Below are positions 57,463-60,094 of a DNA stretch of 64,000 bases, in pieces. Origin of the DNA: Candidatus Thorarchaeota archaeon. Lineage in GTDB: Archaea > Asgardarchaeota > Thorarchaeia > Thorarchaeales > Thorarchaeaceae. The stretch lies in assembly GCA_029855935.1 (NCBI GenBank), contig JAGSHN010000031.1, positions 73,650 through 137,649 on the forward strand, read 5' to 3'. A program made the translations under genes and the position numbers. The notes beneath the pieces were generated by a model. It had not been told where the DNA came from, ran no database searches, and saw only the letters and a program-made list of their open reading frames with translations. Positions within the stretch are counted from its first letter, which is position 1. Each line of letters begins with the position of its first letter.

Positions 57463-57886
57463 ATTGACACCTCTACTTGTCGTGAATAGTCCCAGATGAT
57501 AAGATTCCGCCTAAAATGTATTCCGAGAAGATGGGCAATGGTATGTGAGTATTTGGCCCATATTTGTGGGATAATGGCCGGACCACACAAGCAGACATAA
57601 GAGCGACCTGCAGTGCACAGTACAGACGCGCACCGAGATACTCATCATCTCTCCTCCCGGCAACTGACGTGCGCGTCATCTCCCTTCTGCAGAACCTCTC
57701 CTCTGCGCAGCAGTCACTCTGACAGCAGTGGCTGGCGGCTTGCCATTCGTGAGAGCGACTAGTGTCTGATGCTGTCTTTGGTGAGTATTACTCACAGCCA
57801 TATTGCGGTATGACCGAGAGTGGTATCAGGCCAGTACCGTGGTCCCAATTGTCGGGGCCGGGTCTGGACAGAGGTTCAGGTGAGAG
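57463..57886. other. 424-base intergenic region with a palindrome
   Basis: No tRNA, rRNA or coding frame worth calling is visible here. It holds promoter-like sequence for the divergent nitroreductase (a TATA-like box near 57510-57520), the perfect dyad at 57781-57795, and GTGAGTATT also at 57545. Confidence 0.5.
57781..57795. promoter_or_regulatory. Palindrome upstream of the RHH regulator gene
   Basis: GTGAGTA-T-TACTCAC is a perfect 7-base-pair dyad with a single central base, 91 bases before the RHH gene. Its half-site GTGAGTATT also occurs at 57545. It has the form of an RHH operator; binding is inferred. Confidence 0.5.
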
Positions 57887-58030
57887 ATGATGAAGCTGGT
57901 CACACTACACGTTCCCGAGACCTACATAGACGGTCTGGAGAAGCTAGTAAAGAACAATCTGTATCCAAACAGGTCCGAGGCCATAAGGATTGCAATTCGC
58001 GATCTGTTGAAGCGAGAGCTGTGGGGATGA
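57887..58030 (+). CDS. CopG/NikR-type ribbon-helix-helix regulator (47 residues)
   Basis: This 47-residue gene is short but has the full RHH pattern: MMKLVTLHVPETYIDGLEKL (strand then helix A) followed by PNRSEAIRIAIRDLLKREL (helix B with the conserved SEAIR). It is preceded by GGTGAG and a double ATG. RHH proteins dimerise and bind palindromes such as the one at 57781. It lies 56 bases before a tandem pair of cysteine-rich genes it may control. Confidence 0.8.
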   Translation: MMKLVTLHVPETYIDGLEKLVKNNLYPNRSEAIRIAIRDLLKRELWG

Positions 58031-58055
58031 TCTCAGGCCGTTCCCACAGGCAAGA

Positions 58056-58064
58056 TTAATATCA
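58056..58064 (+). promoter_or_regulatory. TATA box for the first cysteine-rich gene
   Basis: TTAATATCA lies about 30 bases before the GTG at 58087, predicting a nearly leaderless mRNA beginning at that codon. Confidence 0.55.
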
Positions 58065-58086
58065 TTTCATAGACGCGAATAAGTCT

Positions 58087-59112
58087 GTGTGCACAGACAA
58101 GGACACGCCGGGAGAGCCCTCCACACACGGGGCGGGCCTCGATACCTCCACACAGATAGTTGTAGGTGGTAAGAGGTCCACCGTTGGCTGCCCTTGTTTT
58201 ATGGACCTCGGAACCGAAACGATATGCATCAACGGCGATCAAGTACGGCCGGTATCCTACGTCAGAGTGCAGAACGGCACGCCAATTGAGATTGACACCT
58301 ACGTGAGAAACAAGTCGACAAGTGACAGGCTCGAGTGCATCCCCTGCTGTGCGACCGTTGACGTGGGGTCACCCGACGGGTATGCCTATTGCACAGTCAC
58401 AGGCGAGCCGTTGGTGATCAACGGCAGACAGGTACGGAGCGCGGACATTGAGGATGCACTGCAGTTCGTGCTCTTCTCAGGAGCGGAGGACGCCGAGACA
58501 TGCTCTCCGTGTATCTACAAGTACCTGGTGACAATTGGCGGTTTCTTCGAGCACGAGATGGGCCCAGAAGAAACTCGGACAGCCATTGAGGAGTACCTGC
58601 GGTTTCTTGCACGGGATACAGGAGCCAGACGATGGACCGCAGAGGAGGCTGGTGACCTGTACAAGGGCATTCTTCGCTCGCATCTGCACGAGCTGGCCCG
58701 TGAGAAACGTGCTTGGTCCGAGCTGGCCGCTCGTACGTCAGCGGGAGACATATCGGAGCGAGTTCGCGAACTGCTCAACATGTACAGGAGTGCCGCTAGA
58801 ATCGATATGATACTCCACGCTCAGCTCCTCACTCTGTGGGAAGACGAAGGCAATACCCCGGTGAGTGCGGCGACCCTCAGGGACACAGCCAAGAAAATAG
58901 TCGGCCTCTGTGGCAAGATTCATCAGGTCTCTGATGAACTTCTTCGTGAGGCCATTCCTGAGGACATCAGGAGGACCATTAGGCATCACCAAGACAACCG
59001 GAGGAGCCTTGAGGAGAGAGTACAGGTCCTTCTTGAGGCTCTTGACCATCATTCGGCAGAGATGCCAGGCCTCAGAGCCCCTCGGGATAGCAGTGAAGCA
59101 AAACACACGTGA
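58087..59112 (+). CDS. Cysteine-rich protein, paralogue 1
   Basis: This 341-residue protein (GTG start) has an N-terminal cysteine domain: VGCPCFMDLGTETICING (C35, C37, C47), ECIPCCATV (C84, C87, C88), AYCTVTGEPL (C102), IEDALQFVLF and CSPCIYKYL (C139, C142). The C-terminal ~180 residues are helical with coiled-coil character (SHLHELAREKRAWSELAARTS, KKIVGLCGKIHQVSDELLREA). The cysteines are spaced like a metal or Fe-S site and recur in the next gene. No named family recognised. A TATA box fits a leaderless start. Confidence 0.7.
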   Translation: MCTDKDTPGEPSTHGAGLDTSTQIVVGGKRSTVGCPCFMDLGTETICINGDQVRPVSYVRVQNGTPIEIDTYVRNKSTSDRLECIPCCATVDVGSPDGYAYCTVTGEPLVINGRQVRSADIEDALQFVLFSGAEDAETCSPCIYKYLVTIGGFFEHEMGPEETRTAIEEYLRFLARDTGARRWTAEEAGDLYKGILRSHLHELAREKRAWSELAARTSAGDISERVRELLNMYRSAARIDMILHAQLLTLWEDEGNTPVSAATLRDTAKKIVGLCGKIHQVSDELLREAIPEDIRRTIRHHQDNRRSLEERVQVLLEALDHHSAEMPGLRAPRDSSEAKHT

Positions 59113-59131
59113 CAGTGGAAACCAATCTGGG

Positions 59132-60094
59132 ATGGCGCAGATGACAAGCGGAGATAGCGAGATTAGGCTGGTCCGAGGTTGCCCGTGCTTCAAGACCTTC
59201 GGAGACGAAACTCTCTGTGTCAACAATGACGAGATCCTAGAGGTCGATGTCATCGAGATAGACCCGGCCATCTTCACATTCCACAAGACAAGAGAGGACA
59301 TCGCCAGGGAGATGGTCGGTGATGGTGTGACGTGCTATGCTGCAATCTACGTGAACTACCCCGACAACAGTGTCTACTGCATCTCCCAGGGATGGAAGTT
59401 GAGGATTCACGGACGGGATGTCCCAGGCACTGACCTTGAGGATGCACTGCAGTTCCTCTCAACAAAGGACCTACACGCCACCGCGGAGATCTGCAGTGAG
59501 TGCCTCTACAAGTTTCTCCTCACTCTTGCTGACACCTTTGCCGATACTATGTCAAAGGAGGAGAAGACGCAAGAGATCAAGAAGTACGTTGACAAGTTCT
59601 CGATGATGGTCGCGGTGAAGCATAGTCAGGTCGACTCGATGATGCGCCCCATCGGTAGTGAGGAGGACATCGACAAGACCACGGACAGATTTCAGTTCAT
59701 CAGGGAGTATCTCGTACAGCTTTTGGACCAGCAGCAGTACTGGATGGAGTTGGAGCGACAGCTGACCGAGGAGGGGGCTGACGAGTGGCTGATAGACCTC
59801 GTGAGGAAGAGGGAGAGACTTGCTCGCTTCGAGTTCCAGTTCTACAGCCAGACACTTCAGCTGAGGGACATCAATGACTTCAATCTGATGATCAAGATGC
59901 TATCATTCATTCTCAAGACTGCCGATGAGATACTGAAGGTGAACGCGGAGATACACGATGCCATTCGATCGAAGAAGTTCAAACAGATGGTGGAGAGAGA
60001 CAAACGACTCTCACCTCTTGCAGAATACGCCAAGAAGAGCCGTATTGTTGAACACAACTTCGGGAACATTCTACAGATATTGACGAGAATCTGA
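59132..60094 (+). CDS. Cysteine-rich protein, paralogue 2
   Basis: From the ATG at 59132 this 320-residue protein repeats the layout of the upstream gene: RGCPCFKTFGDETLCVNNDE (C17, C19, C29), TCYAAIYV (C68), VYCISQGWKL (C83), LEDALQFLS and CSECLYKFL (C121, C124), then a helical tail (FQFIREYLVQLLDQQQYWMEL, FNLMIKMLSFILKTADEILK). The cysteine positions align between paralogues except that copy 1 has two extra cysteines near 87-88. A second ATG lies three codons on. It overlaps no gene and ends 4 bases before the convergent epimerase. Confidence 0.7.
   Translation: MAQMTSGDSEIRLVRGCPCFKTFGDETLCVNNDEILEVDVIEIDPAIFTFHKTREDIAREMVGDGVTCYAAIYVNYPDNSVYCISQGWKLRIHGRDVPGTDLEDALQFLSTKDLHATAEICSECLYKFLLTLADTFADTMSKEEKTQEIKKYVDKFSMMVAVKHSQVDSMMRPIGSEEDIDKTTDRFQFIREYLVQLLDQQQYWMELERQLTEEGADEWLIDLVRKRERLARFEFQFYSQTLQLRDINDFNLMIKMLSFILKTADEILKVNAEIHDAIRSKKFKQMVERDKRLSPLAEYAKKSRIVEHNFGNILQILTRI

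Follow-up and report, generated by a model that had tools for sequence, protein, structure and literature searches.

A Thorarchaeal cassette of a CdrS-type regulator paralogue and two cysteine-rich paralogues shares a predicted operator with cdrS-ftsZ

Introduction

Three kinds of RHH regulator come closest to the one at the locus analysed here. In Sulfolobales, the small RHH protein aCcr1 regulates the cell cycle and represses cdvA. NikR has the same RHH DNA-binding fold, followed by a nickel-binding C-terminal domain that NikR-type metal sensing requires. CdrS, a small stand-alone RHH protein of Haloferax and Halobacterium, controls cell-division genes in haloarchaea, where both the regulator type and its link to ftsZ, in the cdrS-ftsZ2 locus, are already established (PMC7439475, PMC8406309). 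As of a 2024 review, division of Asgard archaea had not been imaged, and CdvA is absent from nearly all of them (PMC7617429), which sets aCcr1 and its target apart from the regulator described below. Here we analyse a Thorarchaeal cassette in which a paralogue of the CdrS-type regulator precedes two cysteine-rich genes instead of ftsZ.

Results

Layout and conservation of the cassette

The window is a 64,000-nt stretch of DNA from a Thorarchaeota (Asgard) genome; no Rfam or tRNA features were found in it. A preliminary description, made from the sequence alone, had placed a dyad, an RHH gene and two cysteine-rich genes (here A and B) at 57781-60094, and all of them are present there (Table 1).

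Table 1 Features of the cassette and of related loci. Coordinates with no prefix refer to the window.
Feature	Coordinates	Strand	Remarks
15-bp dyad GTGAGTATTACTCAC, predicted RHH operator	57781..57795	.	perfect 7+1+7 palindrome
Operator core GTATTAC (GTAWTAC)	57785..57791	+	conserved across cassette promoters
CATATT element, probable TATA-type box	57799..57804	+	7 nt past the core; TATA role inferred
GTATGACC element, cassette-promoter-specific	57808..57815	+	conserved GTATGAC
RHH regulator, CdrS-family paralogue, 47 aa	57887..58030	+	Pfam/NCBIfam matches
Gene A, Cys6 and helical tail	58087..59112	+	341 aa if the GTG start, which is uncertain, is right
Cys6 domain of A	58189..58551	+	approximate limits
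Gene B, Cys6 and helical-bundle tail	~59132..60094	+	about 320 aa
Cys6 domain of B, beta-rich	59162..59548	+	approximate limits
Helical-bundle tail of B	59549..60091	+	generic helical-bundle matches only
Winged-helix-like gene	L176:1118-1609; own genome G000:C12:65241-65585		third predicted regulon member
Arf-Cys6 fusions	L056:7184-8248, L058:1060-2109, L307:3201-4265, L308:3565-4608, L309:3606-4622		
Multi-TM-Cys6 fusions	L057:6924-8129, L304:1596-2729, L305:523-1656, L306:1365-2558, L310:3079-4263		
Giant TrmB-domain coiled-coil proteins	L064:4513-8322, L067:3260-7687, L313:417-4763, L315:1022-4813		

The RHH gene and the two paralogues form one recurring cassette in about 13 genera, and nearly every Thorarchaeaceae locus that has sufficient flanking sequence keeps the order RHH-A-B; the orthologous loci that bear names are almost all Candidatus Thorarchaeota. 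Of the family's 47 genomes, 44 contain matches to B, some of which are partial or solo paralogues. The length of the gap between the RHH gene and A differs between loci, and in one genome (G004) a divergent copy resembling B comes after B. In two loci, a tandem pair of RHH genes lies ahead of A/B (L086:2377-2779 and L102:4301-4685).

The alignment of A with B (28% identity over 272 aa, E 1e-29) shows that they are true paralogues and bears out the tandem duplication that had been suspected. B is conserved, its orthologues being 47-74% identical to it; the orthologues of A evolve fast (18-39% identity) and keep six invariant cysteines. Estimates of dN/dS are near 0.02 for B and 0.05 for A, from two pairs with estimable dS. 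Neither protein had a match above cut-off in Pfam or NCBIfam, and a PDB sequence search gave nothing significant, so that the view of A and B as belonging to no named family still stands. No relatives of B were found in the viral contigs searched. An obligate A:B heterodimer is unlikely because one genome (G014, 97% complete) keeps the RHH gene and B but not A.

A CdrS-type regulator

The 47-residue RHH protein, whose gene is where it had been reported, stands alone and matches Pfam RHH_1 above the gathering cut-off (E 3.9e-8). Its best NCBIfam match is CdrS (NF058555, E 7.8e-13), at 48.2 bits and thus under the 100-bit equivalog cut-off for the haloarchaeal protein. This model appears to be halophile-specific, since the ftsZ-adjacent Thorarchaeal CdrS likewise scores only 47.4 bits on it. 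The match to aCcr1 (NF053762) is weak (E 3.7e-5, 23.5 bits, under the 60-bit cut-off), and weaker ones were obtained to the NikR N-terminal domain and to the ParD antitoxin (E 0.069). The protein ends right after helix 2, and no C-terminal metal-binding domain follows.

The same genome encodes three further relatives at 60-65% identity. One of them, 64% identical to the RHH protein of the window, directly precedes ftsZ and is likely the CdrS orthologue; the window gene, which precedes A/B, is separate from it. Across about 30 genomes, mean identity is 91% among cassette RHH proteins, 79% among CdrS proteins and 65% between the two groups. On these sequence grounds, the cassette RHH protein is a paralogue of the CdrS-type regulator. 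The GTAWTAC site described below is absent from the two other CdrS-like RHH genes of the same genome. Elsewhere, a CdrS-like RHH gene lies just 5' of an ABC transporter permease/ATPase pair (L116:6609-6872).

A predicted operator shared with cdrS-ftsZ

The dyad GTGAGTATTACTCAC is the perfect palindrome that had been described, and no other exact copy exists in the window or in the genome. When up to three mismatches were allowed, genome-wide matches to the 15-bp dyad showed no excess over a reversed control (48 vs 80), so only its shorter core combined with CAWAT is informative. The part of the dyad that is conserved between genera is GTAWTAC, with CATAT 7 nt later. GTAWTAC is present in all 33 upstream regions of cassette RHH genes (from 31 loci), and each position of CATATT is 81-97% conserved in 31 promoters. 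The GTATGACC element, whose GTATGAC is 84-97% conserved in cassette promoters and weak in cdrS-ftsZ promoters, lies between this putative TATA box and the start of transcription.

Thorarchaeal genomes also hold a true cdrS-ftsZ locus, and its promoter carries the same predicted operator. Of 28 such promoters, 16 have the exact core, nearly always some 53 nt ahead of the start codon; the remaining 12 carry, at this -53 position, a site that differs from it by one mismatch (GTAATAT and, in one case, a TAATAC form). By comparison, shuffled promoters gave 1-1.5 GTAWTAC matches per set, and among 299 other upstream regions from the same loci the core was found in 11 and the composite of core and CAWAT in none. 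In other Asgard families, one cdrS-ftsZ promoter contains GTAATAC (L325, at -61 and -158) and another GTACTAC, and no such site was seen in the remaining ones examined, so the operator is not established as ancestral.

We then searched 47 whole genomes for the composite GTAWTAC-N7-CAWAT and clustered the downstream genes. Three targets recur: the cassette, cdrS-ftsZ and a small gene whose product, of roughly 115 aa, weakly resembles winged-helix proteins and has no family match. One further target gene recurs in just two close genomes, and in three relatives of the same genus the composite marks the ftsZ and cassette sites only. GTAWTAC precedes the winged-helix-like gene in 25 of 26 genomes (0.8 expected). 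The search returned 101 composite sites in total against 59 for the reversed-pattern control, so many of the single sites are chance; the counts are not independent because the target sequences are related, and binomial values therefore overstate significance. The predicted regulon of cassette, cdrS-ftsZ and winged-helix-like gene is well supported by sequence. As the same predicted switch precedes ftsZ, the A/B pair is probably part of a division-linked gene programme.

It is possible to explain the site more simply, with the RHH protein controlling only itself and A and B being unrelated housekeeping genes co-located by descent. GTAWTAC could be a self-regulatory site retained after duplication of the cdrS gene together with its promoter, and the variable gap between the RHH gene and A would agree with this. 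Such an origin is probably not the sole cause, however, because the winged-helix-like target, which is not an RHH gene, carries the site as well; A and B also remain behind the RHH gene through all genera. We therefore consider pure autoregulation unlikely.

A toxin-antitoxin system, with an RHH antitoxin that autoregulates on the palindrome and A and B as toxins, would also fit the arrangement, as an RHH gene and a palindrome ahead of two genes are a common layout of such systems, and the weak ParD match points the same way. Yet the cassette shows vertical, near-universal retention in one family, the RHH protein stops after helix 2 and has no neutralising tail, A and B are long proteins without a match to any toxin family, and the predicted operator is common to ftsZ. 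Taken together, these points make a toxin-antitoxin function very improbable.

The cysteine-rich domain

A and B share CPC-x9-C, a mid C, a second C (in YC), (I/L)EDALQF and CxxC. This pattern, reported from the two proteins, stood in part when homologues were compared: six cysteines (the C of CP, three single ones and the two of CxxC) are invariant in A, B and even distant homologues. The second C of CPC is almost so: one B has Val there, and distant homologues have various residues. Conservation of EDALQF is partial. We call this region the Cys6 domain. As suggested earlier, its conserved cysteines are likely to bind metal.

AlphaFold2 models had a pLDDT of 84.7 for full-length B and 83.7 for the domain alone. 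The N-terminal domain in the model of B is rich in beta structure, its CxxC lies where a helix begins, and a long helical bundle comes next. The models put the three sequence pairs of cysteines near hairpin or helix ends, a predicted placement that fits metal binding, with the metal itself a matter of inference. Foldseek found no match at E 0.001 or better for the Cys6 domain model in the PDB, and only generic helical matches, none significant, for full-length B. With VIA, HslV/proteasome chains reached Z 2.8 at most against the domain alone, which we do not accept as a relationship; the full B model matched helical bundles at up to Z 9.4, a value that for helical bundles may reflect mere common arrangement.

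Cys6 proteins in other Asgard archaea

A profile search over 227 Asgard genomes found the Cys6 domain in 88 of them. Outside Thorarchaeaceae, it occurs in solo proteins of 120-160 aa or with a helical tail like that of A and B. Five genomes of another Asgard family encode an Arf-family GTPase with Cys6 fused at the C-terminus (Pfam Arf E 5e-44 and 4e-44 in the two tested), and at five loci Cys6 follows a multi-TM segment that has no Pfam match; the latter protein is possibly a membrane sensor. Judged by these domain combinations, Cys6 is an Asgard module that comes solo, with a helical tail, or fused to Arf or to multi-TM segments.

Two other kinds of neighbour were seen. Several genomes within a single Asgard family have, immediately 5' of a solo Cys6 gene, a gene for a giant coiled-coil protein with a TrmB domain, and at one locus (L059:8547-10055) the gene for a protein with a thioredoxin-like domain fused to two V4R domains adjoins another solo Cys6 gene.

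The Arf fusions resemble Arf/Rag-type GTPases of Asgard archaea that carry a longin or roadblock domain (PMC10933270), in that an Arf-family GTPase is likewise joined to an accessory domain, but here the accessory domain is Cys6, which has no Pfam match. No mention of it was found in the searched passages of that paper, and Cys6 appears to be a previously undescribed fusion partner of Arf GTPases. These fusions, together with a third Thorarchaeal Cys6 paralogue that lies directly downstream of a Ras/Rab-like GTPase gene in two genomes (Pfam Ras E 8e-42 for the one in L053), suggest that A and B could be signalling adaptors in the Asgard GTPase network, their CdrS-type promoter being incidental. 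However, A and B themselves have no adjoining GTPase genes, nor do most solo paralogues, and the two neighbour cases may be chance because Asgard genomes are rich in GTPases. We regard this reading as conceivable but doubtful.

The fusions also bear on the metal or stress response that the preliminary description had proposed. In such an operon, the RHH protein would sense metal or redox state and A and B would store, buffer or use metal. Cysteine-rich products and the weak likeness to the NikR N-terminal domain agree with it, but the regulator speaks against it: at only 47 aa the RHH protein has no ligand or sensor domain, its similarity to NikR is confined to the RHH fold, it is of the CdrS type, and its predicted operator is common to cdrS-ftsZ, not to metal genes. 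Moreover, the fusion partners of Cys6 are a GTPase and a TM segment, not known metal transporters or oxidoreductases. A metal or stress operon is therefore improbable.

Discussion

We propose, with a probability of roughly 0.5, that the cassette belongs to a CdrS-family division or growth regulon of Thorarchaeota in which A and B serve as metal-binding adaptors. To our knowledge, no division protein carries the Cys6 domain, which weighs against this reading. The RHH dimer, its paralogue CdrS or both would bind GTAWTAC immediately 5' of the core promoter and would control the RHH gene's own operon, cdrS-ftsZ and the winged-helix-like gene together, so that A and B would be expressed in step with the FtsZ programme. 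Both would act in the cytoplasm, the N-terminal Cys6 as a mobile Asgard domain that binds metal, most likely zinc, and the C-terminal helical bundle for protein contacts. GTAWTAC precedes the presumed TATA box, and the Haloferax CdrS paper ties sites in that position to activators (PMC8406309). One could speculate that GTATGACC, downstream of that box, gives separate repression in the cassette.

A broader idea is that Cys6 is a metal-binding module specific to Asgard archaea that couples small-GTPase and membrane signalling to FtsZ-based division, A and B being division-stage adaptors under the CdrS-type switch of FtsZ and the Arf and TM fusions linking the same module to GTPases and membrane sensors in other Asgard archaea. 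We hold this coupling to be rather unlikely.

The logic of the regulation is familiar; the effector family is not. New are the paralogous cassette of Thorarchaeota, the regulon of three targets predicted for it, and the Cys6 module, which has no name and occurs fused to Arf GTPases and to TM segments. The predictions suit in vitro tests, as the proteins are small and the DNA is short. Among prokaryotes, Asgard archaea are the nearest known relatives of eukaryotes, and the cassette bears on how they control division, offering a concrete predicted operator, a predicted regulon of three targets, ftsZ among them, and an Asgard module linked to that regulon and so far uncharacterised.
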